Under the pieces are notes generated by a model that was not told the DNA's origin, searched no databases, and worked only from the letters and a program-made list of their open reading frames with translations. 64,000 nt of DNA from Halocalculus aciditolerans (GTDB taxonomy: Archaea > Halobacteriota > Halobacteria > Halobacteriales > Halobacteriaceae). This document shows positions 31,575 through 40,274 of the stretch, piece by piece. The stretch lies in NCBI RefSeq assembly GCF_014647475.1, contig NZ_BMPG01000002.1:558001-622000 (forward strand), read 5' to 3'. Positions within the stretch are counted from its first letter, which is position 1. Every line of letters starts with the position of its first letter. Made by a program: the position numbers and the translations under genes.

Positions 31575-32602
31575 CGGTCTTCAACCTCGCCTTCGTTGAC
31601 GTCGAAGATGTCGCGGAGGCCGTCGCCCAGCATGTTGAACGCGAGGACGACGACCATGATGGCGATGCCGGGCATGATGGAGATCCACCACGCTTGGCTG
31701 ATGAACTGCCGGCCGTCGGAGAGGAGGAGCCCCCACGTCGGCGTCGTCGGTTTGACGCCGAGGCCGAGGAAGCTCAGGCCCGCTTCGGCGAGGATGGCGA
31801 GCGGAATCATCAGTGTCGCCTGCACGATGAGTGGGGCGACGGCGTTCGGCAGAATCTCTTTGAACATGATGCGGGAGTTCGACATGCCGACCGCGCGCGC
31901 GGCGGTGATATACTCCTCTTCGCGTATCGAGAGGACTTCGCCGCGGATGAGGCGGGCGAAGTCGTCGATGTACGCGATGCCGATGGCGATGATGACGTTC
32001 GTCACCCCCAACCCGCCGGAGAGGGCGATGATGCCGACGCCGAGGATCAGCTCGGGGAACGCCCACTGGAAGTCGACGTAGCGCATGAGGAGGCTGTCGA
32101 TGAGGCCGCCGTAGAAGCCGGCGGCGAGGCCGATGGTCGTCCCGACGGTGAACGCGACGGCGACCGTCGCGAGCGCGACGAGGAGGCTCACGCGCGCCCC
32201 GAAGATGAGACGGGAGAGGATGTCGTGGCCGAAGGAGTCCGTGCCGAGGTAGTGGGTGACGGTCTCCATCTGGCCGTCGCCGTTGAAGTCGCCGGTCGTC
32301 TGACTCATCGGCGGCTGCATGAAGCCGTAGGTGGCTTCGGGGTTGTGCGGCGCGACGATGGGCGCGAGCGCGGCGACGAGGAGGAACGCGATGACGACGA
32401 CTGCGCCGAAGAGCGCCATCTTGTCGGAGACGAGGCCGCCGACGATGCGCTCGGTGAGCGACTCGTGTTCGTCGATGTACTCCTCGGTCTCGTACTCGGG
32501 CGGAACGTCCGGCGGGCCGGGTTCTGCGTGCGTGTTCGGGCCGACGCCGGGGCTGTTCGACGCGGTCCCCGGGTCGTCGGAGGGAGAGTGTTCTTCGGTC
32601 AT
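31571..32602 (-). CDS. ABC transporter permease (DppC-like)
   Basis: The 343-residue permease has an acidic N-terminal tail of about 55 residues, then a first helix (ALFGAVVVIAFLLVAALAPIV). The family LGTDSFGHDILSRL motif and the EAA-loop (EEEYITAARAVGMSNSRIMFKEILPN) are present, with about six helices. Unusually, the exported loop before LGTD contains DFNGDGQME, which looks like a calcium-binding dockerin/EF-type loop. It overlaps dppB-like and dppD-like neighbours by four bases. Confidence 0.9.
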   Translation of the reverse strand: MTEEHSPSDDPGTASNSPGVGPNTHAEPGPPDVPPEYETEEYIDEHESLTERIVGGLVSDKMALFGAVVVIAFLLVAALAPIVAPHNPEATYGFMQPPMSQTTGDFNGDGQMETVTHYLGTDSFGHDILSRLIFGARVSLLVALATVAVAFTVGTTIGLAAGFYGGLIDSLLMRYVDFQWAFPELILGVGIIALSGGLGVTNVIIAIGIAYIDDFARLIRGEVLSIREEEYITAARAVGMSNSRIMFKEILPNAVAPLIVQATLMIPLAILAEAGLSFLGLGVKPTTPTWGLLLSDGRQFISQAWWISIMPGIAIMVVVLAFNMLGDGLRDIFDVNEGEVEDR

Positions 32603-33552
32603 TGCTCATCACCGTAGCGGATACGCGGGTCGATTGCGGTGTACGCGATGTCCACCGCGAGGTTCGTGAACACCATGACGGCGGCCACCAGGAGGATGAC
32701 GGCCTGCGTCACGGGGTAGTTGCGGTCCAGCATCGAGTCGACGAGCAGCCGGCCGAGGCCCTTGATGCCGAAGACGATCTCCACCGTCACGCTCCCGACG
32801 AGCACGAGCGCGAGCTGGATGCCCGCGACCGTGATGACGGGGATGAGGGCGTTCTGGAACGCGTGCTTGTAGAGGCGGACGTTCCCGGAGAGGCCTTTCG
32901 CGCGTGCGGTGCGCATGTAGGGTTTGTCGAGGACTTCCAGCAGGCTGGAGCGCATCATCCGCATGATGACCGCGGCGTACGGCAGGCCGACGGCGATACC
33001 GGGGAGGATGATGCTCTTGAGCCACGGGACGACGCCCGCGGAGAGCGGCGTGTACCCGACGATGGGCAGCCAGTTCAGCTGGACGCCGAAGATGATGGCG
33101 AGGACGATGCCGACGAAGAACGCGGGCGCGGACACGCCGGTGAACGCGGCGATGGTCGCGAGGTAGTCGACGGGCTGGCGTTTCCGCGTCGCGGAGACGA
33201 TGCCCGTCGGAATCGCGACGGCGAGGCCGACGACGATAGCGACGATGGCGATGCTCGCGGTGCGCGGCGCGGCCTGCGACATGACGGTGCTGACCGCCTG
33301 CCCGTTCACGAGGCTCTGTCCGAACTGCCCCGTCGCCATGTCGGTGATCCAGTTGACGTACTGGACGGGGAGCGGTTGGTTCAAGCCGAGTTGCTCGCGG
33401 AGCGCGGCAACCGCCTCGGGCGTGGCCTCCTGGCCGAGCATCGTCCGGACGGGACCGCCCGGGATGGCGCGCAGGCCGAAGAAGACCGTCGTCGCGACCA
33501 GCCACATGATAAAGACCGCGTGGAGGACGCGTTTAGCGATGTATCGACGCAT
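32599..33552 (-). CDS. ABC transporter permease (DppB-like)
   Basis: The 317-residue permease matches the DppB layout. It has a single N-terminal helix (VLHAVFIMWLVATTVFFGLRAIPGGP), a large exported loop (QLGLNQPLPVQYVNWI) and five further helices. The EAA-loop carries YMRTARAKGLSGNVRLYKHAFQNALIPV. It starts 24 bases after the solute-binding gene in the same leftward operon. Confidence 0.92.
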   Translation of the reverse strand: MRRYIAKRVLHAVFIMWLVATTVFFGLRAIPGGPVRTMLGQEATPEAVAALREQLGLNQPLPVQYVNWITDMATGQFGQSLVNGQAVSTVMSQAAPRTASIAIVAIVVGLAVAIPTGIVSATRKRQPVDYLATIAAFTGVSAPAFFVGIVLAIIFGVQLNWLPIVGYTPLSAGVVPWLKSIILPGIAVGLPYAAVIMRMMRSSLLEVLDKPYMRTARAKGLSGNVRLYKHAFQNALIPVITVAGIQLALVLVGSVTVEIVFGIKGLGRLLVDSMLDRNYPVTQAVILLVAAVMVFTNLAVDIAYTAIDPRIRYGDEQ

Positions 33553-33576
33553 AGAGAGAGAGGGTTTGGGGTGTGG

Positions 33577-35250
33577 TTACTCGGAGAGCGAGACCGTGTG
33601 GAAGTTACGGAGGAAGGGGATGTGCTGGAACCCCTGGACGGAGTCGCTGACGCCGGCGAGGTCGTCCTGGTGGACGAGGTAGGCGTGCGGGACGTCCGTG
33701 ATGAGTTTGTCCTCGAGCTGCTGGAGGATGGACTTCCGTTCCTCGCGGTCGAGCGCGCGGCGCTGGTCGGCGAGGAGCTGGTGGACTTCGTCGTCCTCGT
33801 AGTTCGTCCAGTTCCACGGGCCGCCCTTCCGGTAGAAGTTCCAGAGGGACTGGTCGGGGTCGGGGTCGCCGACGCTCCCGGAGATGGTGACGTCGTAGTC
33901 GCCGTTCTCGTAGCGCTCCCAGTACGTCGAGGACGTGACCTGCTCGATGTCGACGTCGAAGCCGGCGCTGTTCAGCTGCTGGCGCATGACTTTCGCGCCG
34001 CGGAGGCTGGACTTCGTCGTCAGGATGCTGAAGGACGCGCCGGACGCGCCGGAGTCCTCTAGGAGCTGCTGGGCGGCCTCCGGGTCGTAGGCCTGGTCGT
34101 CGGGTTTGTCCTCGCGGTACACCCAGTTCGTCGCCTTGTTGATGGGGCCCTGCGCGGAGATGGCGTTCCCGAAGTAGGCGGCCTGGATGAACTGCTCGTT
34201 GTTGATGGACTTCGCGATGCCCATGCGGGCGTCGACGTCGCCGAAGGGCTCGCGCTCCTGGTTCATCGCGAGGCCGTACCAGTTCACGCCGGGCGCGGAG
34301 TCGACGGAGACGCCGGACGCGGATTCGACGCTGTCGACGTTCTGGAGCGGAATCAGGTTCGCGATGTCGATGTCGCCGGACTTGAGCGCGTTGACGATGG
34401 TGGACGGGTCGGGAATCGGCTTGATGTCGACGCCGTCGAGGTACGGGAGCTGGTTCCCGTCCTCGTCCGTCTCGAAGTAGTCGTCGTAGGCGTCGAGGGT
34501 GAGCTGGCTGCCGACCTGGTGTTCGGCCACCTCGAACGGGCCGGTGCCGACGGGCGTGATGGCGTACTGGTCTTCGCCCATCTCCTCGATGGCGTCCTGG
34601 CAGACGATGGTCGCCGCGCGACCCGGGCCGCGCGTGAGGTAGATGAGCGCGGGGGCCATCGCCTGCTTGAAGTTCAGTTGCACCGTGTAGTCGTCCTGCA
34701 CGACGACGCCGCCGTCGTCGACGGGTTTCAGGGTCGAGAGCTTCGACGCCGCCGGCGCTTCCTTCTCGATGGTGCGGTTAATCGTGTATTTGACGTCGTC
34801 GGCGGTGAAGTCCGAGCCGTTGTGGAACGTCACGCCCTCGCGGAGCTGGAACGTGAAGGTCTTCCCGCCGTTCGTGACCTCCCAGTCCTTCGCGAGGTCG
34901 CCGCGGACCGTGAGGTCGTCCTTCAGGGTGACGAGCCCGCTGAAGATGTTCGCCGCGGCCTGGAAGTACTGGCCGACGCTGATGTAGGGCGGGTCGAGCA
35001 CGTCGATGCTGCCCGTGAACCAGCCGGCCTGCAGGCGGCCGCCGGTCTGCGCGCCGCCGGACGACTCAGTCGTCGTCGTCTCCTCCCCACCGCTGCTCGT
35101 AGTCGTCTCCCCGCTCCCCCCGGAGTCGCCGCCGCCGGAACACCCCGCGAGCGCGCCGAGACCGGCAGCGCCGAGGAGTGAGACGGTCGTACGACGGTCG
35201 ACGACGGGGCCCGAGAGGGCCTCGTCCGTGAATTCGCTATCGTCTGCCAT
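33577..35250 (-). CDS. ABC transporter solute-binding lipoprotein, family 5
   Basis: The 557-residue protein has a Tat-type signal (VVDRRTTVSLLGAAGLGALAGC) with a lipobox Cys, then a Gly/Ser/Thr-rich linker. The SBP_bac_5 fold follows, with landmarks LAKDWEVTNGGKTFTFQLREGVTFHNG, ADDVKYTINR and the C-terminal YDVTISGSVGDPDPDQSLWNFY. It captures the ligand outside the cell for the two permeases. Family-5 proteins bind peptides, nickel or other small organics; with the creatininase at the operon end, a cyclic amide or amide compound is an open possibility. Confidence 0.92.
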   Translation of the reverse strand: MADDSEFTDEALSGPVVDRRTTVSLLGAAGLGALAGCSGGGDSGGSGETTTSSGGEETTTTESSGGAQTGGRLQAGWFTGSIDVLDPPYISVGQYFQAAANIFSGLVTLKDDLTVRGDLAKDWEVTNGGKTFTFQLREGVTFHNGSDFTADDVKYTINRTIEKEAPAASKLSTLKPVDDGGVVVQDDYTVQLNFKQAMAPALIYLTRGPGRAATIVCQDAIEEMGEDQYAITPVGTGPFEVAEHQVGSQLTLDAYDDYFETDEDGNQLPYLDGVDIKPIPDPSTIVNALKSGDIDIANLIPLQNVDSVESASGVSVDSAPGVNWYGLAMNQEREPFGDVDARMGIAKSINNEQFIQAAYFGNAISAQGPINKATNWVYREDKPDDQAYDPEAAQQLLEDSGASGASFSILTTKSSLRGAKVMRQQLNSAGFDVDIEQVTSSTYWERYENGDYDVTISGSVGDPDPDQSLWNFYRKGGPWNWTNYEDDEVHQLLADQRRALDREERKSILQQLEDKLITDVPHAYLVHQDDLAGVSDSVQGFQHIPFLRNFHTVSLSE

Positions 35251-37495: not shown

Positions 37496-37509
37496 TTTAT
37501 ACGGGTTCC
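37496..37509 (+). promoter_or_regulatory. TATA-containing 14-mer before the small ORF at 37529
   Basis: TTTATACGGGTTCC, with the ATG of the 44-residue ORF 33 bases after its first base. The identical 14 bases recur at 40136-40149 on the far side of the CHAT gene. Confidence 0.55.
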
Positions 37510-37528
37510 TCGCGGACAGGAATATACG

Positions 37529-37663
37529 ATGAGCGCGACGACGCACACTGATTATCTCGCAGCCCACCCCCGGACGATCGGCATGCTCTTCGCCTGCGGT
37601 CTCGCCCTCTCCAGCGCCGCCCGCTTCGGTGCCAGCAACCTCGGCACCATCAGCGGTCCCTGA
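37529..37663 (+). CDS. Small hydrophobic protein, 44 residues
   Basis: The short frame reads MSATTHTDYLAAHPRTIGML...ISGP. It has a polar N-terminus and one hydrophobic stretch (TIGMLFACGLALSSAARFG). It resembles the tiny haloarchaeal proteins with a HPR-x-IG-x-L-F pattern ending in GP (DUF7503-like, from memory). A TATA box lies 33 bases upstream. The function is unknown; it could be a membrane peptide. It is next to the CHAT gene, which ends 220 bases further on and points towards it. Confidence 0.65.
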   Translation: MSATTHTDYLAAHPRTIGMLFACGLALSSAARFGASNLGTISGP

Positions 37664-37682
37664 ACGCGAACGCGAACGCGAA
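37663..37682. repeat. Tandem AACGCG hexamer
   Basis: Three adjoining copies of AACGCG start at the last base of the small ORF's stop codon. The 220 bases between the ORF and the CHAT gene otherwise show nothing I can name. Confidence 0.6.
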
Positions 37683-37883
37683 GGCTGACCCACACTGACT
37701 GTTCCGACCGTCGGCGTTCTCTTCGCATTCTCTCCGCCGCCTCGCCGCGCCACGCGGGACGTACGTATCTCCTTCCTACCCTCGACGGCGAAGTCCGAAC
37801 GGTGAGAGCCACGGCAGCGACTCCGTCGCGCGAGACGGGGAGAACACGCGGAGGGAAGCGGAACGGAGGCGCGTCAAACCCTC

Positions 37884-40079
37884 TCAGAGCGCGTCGAGGG
37901 CGAACTCGGTGCTCCACGTGAGGTCGCCGTCGACGCGGAGCGGGACGTCCTGGAGGGTGAGGAACTCGATGAGGTCGCCGTGGTCGAGCGTGAACTCGCT
38001 GACGCGCCCGGAGTTGAGGAAGTACTGGTCGTTCCCGTCGAAGTAGGGGACGGTCATGCTGCCCATGCCGGCGTCGCTCGTCGGGTAGGCGTCGATGCCG
38101 ACGGTGTAGGTGTCGTCGGCGTGCTCGTCGACCTCGTAGACCGCGGGGGTGCGACCGCGGGTGGGGGCGAGGGAGAATCCGCCGTCGCCGACGACGACGT
38201 ATCGATTCGACATGAAGGACTCCTCGCCCGCGACGTCGAGCGCGGCGGTGATGGGGAAGCCGTGATTGAGGAGGCGCGCCAGCGTCTGGCCGATGGCGGT
38301 CGCGCCGCGGTTCACGACGTCGCGGACGGTGACGACGCCCGCGATGCTCCCGCGTTCGAGGAGCGCCATGCCCTGCTCGTAGGACCGGCAGGCGTTGAGG
38401 AGGAAGGCGTCGACGCCGACCGCGTCGTCGTCGAGGGTGCGGGCGTCGAGGAGGCCGTCCGGGCATTTGAAGCCCTCGCCGTCGATGTGGCCGATGAAGT
38501 GGAGGAAGTCCACGTCGGAGGCGAGGAGGTCGCGGAGGGCGTCCGTGTGGAGGCGCTCGTAGACGGTGACGTTCATCGCGACGTCGCCGCGGAGTTCGTA
38601 GGCGTCGTTGACGACGTCGCCCTCGGCGTTCATCGCGTCGTCGTTGCAGACGACGGCGACGTCGACGTCGCCGTCGGAGGGCGTGCGGCCGAGCGCGTTC
38701 TCGAACGCGTCCCGCGTGGGTTTGCTCGCGCCGAGCGGCGCGCCCTCGCCGATCCACGACTGCTCGATTGACGGCGTGTGTTCGGGGCGGACGGTGCGCG
38801 GAACGGCCGTGGCCGACCCGGGCGTCGACGCGCCCGTGGACCGCATGAAGTCGCGGACGGCGTCGGTCTTCGCGTCGGCGTCGCCGAGCGCTCGCGTCTG
38901 CGGCGGGCGGACGAGCGCGAGGTCGTTCACCACGTGCGGGAGGAGTTCGACGCTGTCCGGCGTCGGCGCGACGTGCGTCGTCTGCTTCCACTCCGGCACG
39001 TGCGGGGCGACCGTCTCGAAGGGGACGGCGAAGTACGCGGCGAGGCGCGCCTCCGCGTCGGCGTCGTAGAGCGCGGGGAAGTCGAGGTCGACGGCGGCGT
39101 CGAGTTCGTCGCGCTCGTGGAGGTCGACGTCGTAGACCCCCTCGGTCCGCGTCGCGCAGTCGAGGATGAACACCTGCTTGAGCGCTTCCTCGACGCCCGC
39201 CGCGAGGCCGTCGCGGTGGTCGAGGGAGTGCGTGAAGTCGCCGGCGACGAGTCGCGGGTCGTCGCCCGGAACGACGTCCGCGCCGAGGTAGTAGGCGAGC
39301 GGCGCGACGACGAAAACCGATTCGTAGTCCGCGGGGACTTCGACGCGGACGCCCGTGTCGGGGCGTTCGAGGTGGTCGGGCGCGTCGAACTCGTCGCCGA
39401 GCTCGACGAGCGGCGGGTGGCCGCGGAGCGTCGGGTAGGAGCGCTCGGGCGTCGTCGTCTTCAGCGCGCTCCCGAGGAGGGAGACGGCGCGCATCACGTC
39501 CGCGGGGTCGGTCGTCGTCGTGATGGTGCCCGCGGGGTGTTCGTGCCGGGAGCGCGCGCCGATGCGAACAGTCGTTTCGTCCGCGAAGTCGAGGCGCGTC
39601 TGCCCGGGTTCGACGGCGAGGTCGAAGCCGGCGTCGACGCGGACGTAGAGTTTGAGCGCCGCGCAGAACTCGACGCTGTACGTGCCGGCGTCGAAGGAGC
39701 GCGTCGTCGTCGGGCGGGCTTCCGTGACCGTCTCACCGTCGGCGTCGCGAACGATGACGGGGACGCCGTCGTCGAAGGAAATCGAAGTCGTCGACGCCGT
39801 CACGGCGGTGTCGACCGGGAAGACGAAGTCGCCCATACTCGCCGGTTCGACGGACGGCGAGGTGTCGGTACTTTCGGGTTTGGCAGACAGCGAGTTCTCA
39901 GCCGTCGCTTCGGGAGTGGGGGGGTGGGGGGTGGCGTGGGGGGAGGCACCGTCGCCGGCGAGGGCCAGCGAGCAGCGGCGTCGCTCGACGGGGTCTATCA
40001 CGGTGACCCCGGCCGGTGACGGTGTGATGGTCAGGGGGCCGTCGGCGTCCGGCACGCCCCCGTTCCGGTGTGAATCCAT
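37884..40079 (-). CDS. CHAT-domain (caspase-like) protein
   Basis: The 731-residue protein has a Pro/Thr/Ser-rich linker (about 40-85), a beta-rich middle (about 85-330) and a C-terminal CHAT-type peptidase domain. The His-Cys dyad is visible as His531 in FLHFIGHIDGEG and Cys564 in FLLNACRSYEQG, followed by GVVTVRDVVNRGATAIGQT. CHAT proteases are clan CD enzymes, several of which act in immune or cell-death systems elsewhere. Here no TPR, gasdermin or other known partner is adjacent, only two tiny ORFs. No signal peptide. The ATG at 40079 fits a leftward TATA (40135-40142). The role is unknown. Confidence 0.8.
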   Translation of the reverse strand: MDSHRNGGVPDADGPLTITPSPAGVTVIDPVERRRCSLALAGDGASPHATPHPPTPEATAENSLSAKPESTDTSPSVEPASMGDFVFPVDTAVTASTTSISFDDGVPVIVRDADGETVTEARPTTTRSFDAGTYSVEFCAALKLYVRVDAGFDLAVEPGQTRLDFADETTVRIGARSRHEHPAGTITTTTDPADVMRAVSLLGSALKTTTPERSYPTLRGHPPLVELGDEFDAPDHLERPDTGVRVEVPADYESVFVVAPLAYYLGADVVPGDDPRLVAGDFTHSLDHRDGLAAGVEEALKQVFILDCATRTEGVYDVDLHERDELDAAVDLDFPALYDADAEARLAAYFAVPFETVAPHVPEWKQTTHVAPTPDSVELLPHVVNDLALVRPPQTRALGDADAKTDAVRDFMRSTGASTPGSATAVPRTVRPEHTPSIEQSWIGEGAPLGASKPTRDAFENALGRTPSDGDVDVAVVCNDDAMNAEGDVVNDAYELRGDVAMNVTVYERLHTDALRDLLASDVDFLHFIGHIDGEGFKCPDGLLDARTLDDDAVGVDAFLLNACRSYEQGMALLERGSIAGVVTVRDVVNRGATAIGQTLARLLNHGFPITAALDVAGEESFMSNRYVVVGDGGFSLAPTRGRTPAVYEVDEHADDTYTVGIDAYPTSDAGMGSMTVPYFDGNDQYFLNSGRVSEFTLDHGDLIEFLTLQDVPLRVDGDLTWSTEFALDAL

Positions 40080-40135
40080 CTGTTCTATTCGTCTTCGTAC
40101 TCTCGTAAGAAGCTGGTGGCCGGAGCCGGTACGCA

Positions 40136-40149
40136 TTTATACGGGTTCC
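40136..40149 (+). promoter_or_regulatory. Second copy of the TATA-containing 14-mer
   Basis: TTTATACGGGTTCC, identical to 37496-37509. Read rightward it precedes a 33-residue ORF by 37 bases. Read leftward its GTATAAAT forms the TATA box of the CHAT gene, so it may serve both directions. Confidence 0.55.
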
Positions 40150-40165
40150 CGGTGAGCACCGGGAA
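40146..40165. repeat. 8-bp perfect stem-loop in the CHAT upstream region
   Basis: TTCCCGGT, loop GAGC, ACCGGGAA. It begins inside the 14-mer promoter element, at the expected rightward initiation zone. Confidence 0.6.
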
Positions 40166-40171
40166 TTCGAC

Positions 40172-40185
40172 AATGTGCGCACATT
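40172..40185. repeat. 14-bp perfect palindrome over a start codon
   Basis: AATGTGCGCACATT contains the ATG of the 33-residue ORF. Such a symmetrical site could be an operator. The surrounding 200 bases are clearly more AT-rich than the rest of the window. Confidence 0.6.
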
Positions 40186-40274
40186 CTGAGGGATTCAGCA
40201 TATGTTTCAGATATTACTGGAACGAAGAGAAATCGGGAGAAGCGTTCGCACGGCCGATTCTAATTCACTCATAA
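40173..40274 (+). CDS. Possible 33-residue small protein
   Basis: The frame begins MCAHSEGFSICFRYYWNEEK and ends RPILIHS. It contains two Cys and many aromatic residues, unlike the acidic style of neighbouring proteins, and lies in AT-richer DNA. Its support is the TATA element 37 bases upstream, the same geometry as the 44-residue ORF at 37529. It may also be chance. The remaining bases to 40379 hold no gene I can support. Confidence 0.25.
   Translation: MCAHSEGFSICFRYYWNEEKSGEAFARPILIHS

Follow-up and report, generated by a model that had tools for sequence, protein, structure and literature searches.

The genes at the locus

The window is a stretch of 64,000 nucleotides from the haloarchaeon Halocalculus aciditolerans. 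Our subject is a gene in it for a predicted CHAT-like protease and the small gene that converges with it, located as follows.

37884..40079, minus strand: gene for a CHAT-like caspase-fold cysteine protease of 731 amino acids, its activity being predicted from the sequence.
Product of this gene, as modelled: N-terminal beta-sandwich (residues ~13-178), middle alpha/beta region and C-terminal catalytic CHAT domain (residues ~467-639).
37529..37663, plus strand: gene for the 44-residue partner, DUF7503 (PF24335), convergent with the protease gene, with 220 bp between the two stops.
Product of this gene: N-terminal segment, HPR, one hydrophobic helix, variable tail and C-terminal Gly-Pro (GP).

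A sequence-only reading of this DNA had described a CHAT-type protein of 731 residues with a His531/Cys564 dyad, and we located both the protein and its intact dyad (His531 in the motif FLHFIGH and Cys564 in the motif LLNAC) as described. An alternative in-frame ATG at 40136, placed in the likely promoter, would extend the product to 750 residues. Since the protein scored 13 bits with the Pfam CHAT model PF12770 (E 0.07), below the gathering score of 24, we call it CHAT-like and not a member of PF12770; the homologue of locus L154 scored 22.8 bits. Judged from its AlphaFold model (predicted local distance difference test, pLDDT, 75.9; predicted template-modelling score, pTM, 0.72), the protease has the caspase-like catalytic fold of the CHAT and clan CD enzymes, its C-terminal domain being matched in the PDB by SAVED-CHAT (8tl0, Z 18.2), gingipain R (RgpB, 4ief, Z 17.6) and separase (5fc2, Z 17.1), with a Foldseek E value of 7e-7. 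The N-terminal 400 residues were modelled as a beta-sandwich and an alpha/beta region with no TPR fold, and the N-terminal domain weakly resembles a beta-supersandwich (best Z 8.2). The protease has no signal peptide.

The 44-residue open reading frame (ORF) matched DUF7503 alone among the Pfam, NCBIfam and PADLOC models, none of the matches being to a gasdermin. Because its DUF7503 score (56.8 bits) lies above the gathering cut-off of 27, and because the ratio of non-synonymous to synonymous differences (pN/pS) of the family is 0.10, we regard it as a real gene.

Conservation of the gene pair and of the Gly-Pro end

In the family of the host, CHAT homologues occur in 22 of 26 genomes and DUF7503 in the same 22. 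DUF7503 was found in 250 of 292 Halobacteria genomes and is present in Haloferax volcanii; a CHAT homologue accompanied it in every DUF7503 genome sampled, and half of the 42 genomes without DUF7503 (21) were also devoid of any CHAT match. We read 120 DUF7503 loci, 30 from the host's family and 90 class-wide (among the matches listed, the 30 best-scoring and 60 taken from many genera). A CHAT homologue converges with DUF7503 in 118 of these loci, mostly at less than 100 bp, and the two exceptions, both from the genome G023, belong to a dispersed family of near-identical short copies. This Halospeciosus flavus-like genome harbours five near-identical orphan copies of DUF7503; the two that were read (L062 and L063) have no CHAT gene nearby and have in common a unit of ~214 bp (89% identity) resembling a dispersed short element that bears the small gene.

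The reverse test used CHAT as the bait in 80 named loci from GTDB species genomes (Haloferax, Haloarcula, Halorussus, Haladaptatus, Halobellus and others). Among their 82 CHAT ORFs, 73 have a convergent DUF7503 at most 1.1 kb away. Furthermore, a convergent small ORF ending in GP lies within 300 bp of CHAT at 75 of the 80 loci, as compared with 49 of 2903 random positions (1.7%). The other five loci also possess DUF7503, which adjoins CHAT with a changed C-terminus in four cases and lies at 2.7 kb in the fifth. The distance matrices of CHAT and DUF7503 are correlated (r 0.54; permutation maximum 0.08), and the dyad is kept in nearly all of 150 partner-linked CHAT homologues (His in 149, Cys in 148). 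As judged from these genome comparisons, the CHAT-DUF7503 pairing is well supported. The compact system of a protease and small proteins proposed by the sequence-only reading is thus real, and extends beyond what was expected, as far as the 44-residue ORF is concerned, since its family is tied to CHAT-like genes throughout the class. By its own standard, that reading would be refuted if CHAT homologues mostly lacked the two small neighbours; across the loci read, this refutation fails for the 44-residue ORF and succeeds for the 33-residue ORF on the other side of the protease gene.

The host genome carries a second convergent CHAT-DUF7503 pair (G000:C2:418876-420939; loci L002 and L006), with a CHAT identity of 44% and a gap of 6 bp, as well as tandem CHAT paralogues (L004/L005; G000:C3:3416-6844) that have lost the His-Cys dyad. 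The family also occurs on 25 haloarchaeal plasmids. No homologue was found in phage records and viral contigs, and we rejected a phage or virus origin on that account.

The consensus of DUF7503 comprises, in that order, [HN]P[RK]MxG[VA]LFT, a leucine-rich helix, QAG, a stretch of small residues resembling A-x-A, a variable linker of 6-8 residues and the C-terminal Gly-Pro, which was found in 112 of 114 distinct cores. The P-[RK] ahead of the helix is strict in these 114 cores (93 R and 21 K). The positions before the tail are occupied by A or V (-3) and by A (108 cores) or G (6 cores) (-1), resembling a signal-peptidase site. The tails themselves are diverse (166 different ones among 184 DUF7503 sequences), with a fixed end. 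In close pairs, pN/pS is 0.27 for the N-terminus, 0.058 for the core, 0.21 for the tail and 0.002 for the final GP, whose codons show 230 synonymous differences for a single non-synonymous one, the tightest constraint of DUF7503. As the Gly, Pro and stop codons differ between relatives, selection acts on the end of the protein. Together, these comparative sequence data establish that the intact protease and its small partner are passed on together, and that selection on the protein is strongest at the C-terminal Gly-Pro.

The layout of the genes could also be read as a translation or RNA device, in which the GP before the stop would slow termination, in a SecM- or TnaC-like manner, or in which the convergent overlapping transcripts would regulate each other as antisense RNAs. 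GP-type ends do occur in known arrest peptides, and the stops of the two genes often abut or overlap (the gap has a median of 1 bp over 150 distinct pairs, of which 32 share exactly 4 bp, their stop codons overlapping). We consider such a device very unlikely on four grounds. First, the Gly, Pro and stop codons vary freely. Second, the amino-acid constraint spans the whole helix (pN/pS 0.058). Third, GP is kept in pairs separated by tens to hundreds of bp. Fourth, GP is repeated internally in the partners of Haloplanus.

These Haloplanus partners belong to a set of natural replacements. Several genomes possess a partner-type CHAT and no Pfam match to DUF7503, and have another GP-ending ORF at the same convergent position. 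In Haloplanus (genus g45; six genomes and two named loci) the partner has no transmembrane helix and consists of 4-13 tandem [TN]ADGN[GS][GS]GISGP units, for example TADGNSGGISGP. The repeats are copies of a DUF7503-type tail, uniform inside a species and different between species, and the protein begins much like the DUF7503 of a congeneric species (MSxxDSGTV). In the genome G095 the DNA copies of the repeat are 83% alike and the peptides almost identical.

L154 3483-4049, minus strand: Haloplanus repeat partner, convergent with CHAT (also at L163-L168, L180 and L186; L180 has at least two units of a GAVSGP variant).

The partner of Halococcus has 41 residues, no HPR helix and the end CTYSGP, and that of Halomarina has HPK, a weak helix and the end NNGP or NPGP; both are convergent to CHAT. 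Other divergent GP-ending partners occur in two g74 genomes, at several of the 12 CHAT loci of G137 and at L157; the forms in G247, G273, G137 and L157 are all convergent to CHAT. The genome G137 has ~12 CHAT-like matches and no DUF7503 match (loci L259, L267, L270, L273 and L275-L280). The partners devoid of a transmembrane helix or bearing repeats escape the Pfam DUF7503 model. Since the replacements keep the GP end, it is the C-terminal Gly-Pro tail that all these partners share; the membrane helix, though usual, is dispensable.

Upstream sequences and neighbouring genes

The following features flank the two genes.

37496..37509, plus strand: 14-mer TTTATACGGGTTCC, which holds the probable TATA box of the DUF7503 gene and starts 33 nt before its ATG.
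40136..40149, no strand assigned: the 14-mer again, which reads GGAACCCGTATAAA on the minus strand and probably supplies the TATA region of the protease gene (presumed promoter role).
40146..40165, no strand assigned: inverted repeat TTCCCGGTG-AG-CACCGGGAA upstream of the protease gene, operator-like.
40172..40185, no strand assigned: perfect palindrome AATGTGCGCACATT upstream of the protease gene, including the start codon of the 33-residue ORF.
40173-40274, plus strand: 33-residue ORF, judged not to be a gene.

The sequence-only reading had the protease flanked by two small ORFs, each preceded by the same 14-mer with 33 and 37 bases to its ATG. The two copies are identical and lie where it had placed them, and these distances hold if the 14-mer itself is included; 19 and 23 bases separate it from the ATG. 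On the minus strand, the second copy lies 57 nt ahead of the protease ATG. TTTATACGGGTTCC occurs exactly twice in the 3.38-Mb genome, and none of 600 mispaired control promoter pairs shared 14 or more bases, so that the sharing observed here exceeds chance. As 83 other CHAT-DUF7503 pairs have no shared 14-mer and behave like the mispaired controls, we rejected a conserved, system-wide promoter and regard the 14-mer as a peculiarity of the host genome. Because its second copy holds the probable TATA box of the protease gene, it is at most a hint that the two real genes are co-regulated in this species.

Of the two flanking ORFs, the 44-residue one is the DUF7503 gene; the 33-residue one, unsupported, was rejected as a gene, since none of the fetched loci holds a homologue of it (best tblastn E 1.2) and it starts inside a perfect palindrome. 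It has no match in Pfam, NCBIfam or PADLOC, and the PADLOC models matched neither the CHAT-like nor the 44-residue ORF. A regulon of three genes (CHAT and both small ORFs) marked by the 14-mer, to which the two identical and sole copies in the genome would point, is largely refuted by the lack of homologues of the 33-residue ORF and by the 83 promoter pairs, and we give this sequence-derived idea hardly any credit. The motif CAGAATGTGC of the palindromic region (40146-40185) recurs upstream of the CHAT gene of the closest homologue (L008), perhaps as a shared operator.

A HalOD1-DUF7504 (PF24336) gene lies directly upstream of CHAT in 35 of the 80 named loci, with a median gap of 33 bp; in many genera it probably belongs to the module as a third gene.

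L247 6732-7844: example of a HalOD1-DUF7504 gene directly upstream of CHAT.

In the window, the gene upstream of the protease gene encodes an aminotransferase, and there is no HalOD1-DUF7504 there. The top recurrent neighbours identified are HalOD1-DUF7504, Usp, an M50 peptidase and a HalX response regulator. Among the recurrent neighbours identified we found no conserved peptide importer, nothing related to CRISPR (clustered regularly interspaced short palindromic repeats) and no type III-E component, no search having been aimed at gRAMP. The window itself carries at 32599-35250 (minus strand), ~2.3 kb from the DUF7503 gene, genes for an ATP-binding cassette (ABC) transporter permease and a lipoprotein resembling peptide or dipeptide uptake systems, which were not identified as recurrent neighbours elsewhere. 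DdfA of H. volcanii carries HalOD1 (PMC10869688). The CHAT locus of Haloferax relatives comprises, as far as it was read, Usp, HalOD1-DUF7504, the HalX response regulator and further genes. There rdfA/sph3 did not show up, although no search was aimed at them, and we claim no link of the CHAT locus to DdfA or quorum sensing.

A proposed docking model and its possible significance

We propose that the pair forms a two-gene haloarchaeal module, in which a cytosolic CHAT-like cysteine protease would be served by a dedicated and usually membrane-anchored small protein encoded tail-to-tail with it, the GP tail of which docks on the protease as a ligand; we give this reading, drawn from sequence comparisons, a probability of about 0.4. 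The working part of the small protein would be the flexible tail ending in Gly-Pro, presented by the membrane helix; certain genera would use other scaffolds or tandem copies instead. By docking as a tether, a pseudo-substrate inhibitor or a substrate, the tail may keep the protease placed or poised until a signal frees it, and the HalOD1-DUF7504 protein (~35 of 80 loci) could supply that signal. We infer the binding, the direction of regulation, the trigger and the downstream targets.

Several observations weigh against this proposal. First, the invariant Arg/Lys before the helix predicts a cytosolic N-terminus, and would thus place the GP tail outside the cell, away from the protease; the side of the membrane on which the tail lies could overturn the docking model. 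Second, some CHAT paralogues have no GP partner (L030, L035, L003, L155 and L158), those of the tandem pairs L030-L035 and of L003 belonging to other clades, and L028 is a partner-linked CHAT that has lost its dyad. Third, a few DUF7503 proteins have no GP end (Natronococcus). Fourth, HalOD1-DUF7504 is found in under half of the loci.

The single hydrophobic helix and the strict P-[RK] preceding it would also suit an effector acting on membranes, which CHAT would cut during stress or infection, for instance behind the Arg/Lys that borders the helix, so as to permeabilise the membrane in a gasdermin-like manner. Caspase-fold proteases cleave pore formers elsewhere, and the folds nearest to our protease include the Arg/Lys-specific gingipains and the Arg-specific separase. 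However, such an executioner is difficult to reconcile with the partners of Haloplanus, which have no transmembrane helix, and with the weakly hydrophobic ones of Halococcus and Halomarina, and it leaves the GP end unexplained. Moreover, the presence of the family in 250 of 292 genomes, the absence of a PADLOC match and the absence of homologues in phage records and viral contigs make the module more housekeeping-like than defence-like. We therefore regard an executioner as possible, though unlikely.

The small residues at -3 and -1 and the hypervariable tail with its fixed end might instead betray a pre-peptide, made of a signal sequence, an A-x-A site and a mature peptide of 8-9 residues ending in GP, which once exported would be sensed or processed by the CHAT protein, similarly to the peptide pheromones of Gram-positive bacteria. 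The Haloplanus precursors, with their 4-13 copies uniform within species and differing between them, are consistent with this view. However, the Haloplanus and Halococcus forms have no signal sequence, DUF7503 has a long n-region rich in acidic residues, no conserved peptide importer stands among the recurrent neighbours identified, and the CHAT side has no TPR fold, its N-terminus being modelled as a beta-sandwich. Thus, partners devoid of a transmembrane helix or a signal sequence weaken both the executioner and the peptide signal, and the latter, though possible, appears similarly unlikely to us. As the quorum signal of H. volcanii is proteinase-K resistant and smaller than 3 kDa (PMC12240190), we claim no link between it and DUF7503.

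Comparison with known systems places the docking model as follows. SAVED-CHAT of type III CRISPR systems (8tl0) is the best structural match and has a CHAT-type catalytic domain (root-mean-square deviation 2.3 over 171 residues, 17% identity), but the match is limited to that domain, whereas our protease has an N-terminal beta-sandwich, an alpha/beta region and a GP-ending partner of ~44 residues. Separase and the gingipains R/K of clan CD share the catalytic fold (Z 14-18), and separase, held by a dedicated partner protein, securin, offers the closest functional analogy. Securin is a long disordered pseudo-substrate, whereas DUF7503 is short, usually membrane-anchored and ends in Gly-Pro. Similarly, Csx29/Csx30 (Craspase, type III-E) combine a CHAT protease with a dedicated neighbouring protein, but that partner is unrelated, and the haloarchaeal module is near-universal in Halobacteria. 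The bacterial gasdermin-protease operons also have a caspase-fold protease gene beside the gene of a membrane-active candidate, but the haloarchaeal partner has 44 residues and no gasdermin match, and its gene is convergent with that of the protease and nearly class-universal.

In the literature searched, which largely leaves out subscription papers, we found no mention of and no function described for DUF7503 or DUF7504, and no paper combining 'CHAT domain' with haloarchaea or Haloferax; as far as we found, the CHAT-DUF7503 pair is undescribed. H. volcanii is reported to display a very high caspase-like activity, for which housekeeping and stress roles have been suggested, and archaea were said to lack clear caspase homologues (PMC3615174). 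We hypothesise that the CHAT-like protease is a candidate source of this unexplained haloarchaeal activity. Because the CHAT-like family, its dyad intact and its small partner obligate, occurs throughout Haloferax and in almost all of the class, this orphan caspase question can now be tested by gene deletion. More tentatively still, we suggest a class-wide regulatory system in which a protease of the separase/caspase fold recognises a dedicated peptide, often anchored in the membrane, by its C-terminal Gly-Pro, and which possibly includes the gene of the orphan caspase-like activity. The small protein family DUF7503, found throughout the class, thereby gains a partner and a testable function, and a Gly-Pro tail that survives the exchange of the remaining protein, or its conversion into tandem repeats, is of a type not found among the regulators of caspase-fold proteases that we considered. 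If true, such a class-wide system would embody a new principle by which caspase-fold proteases are controlled, or by which archaea signal with peptides.

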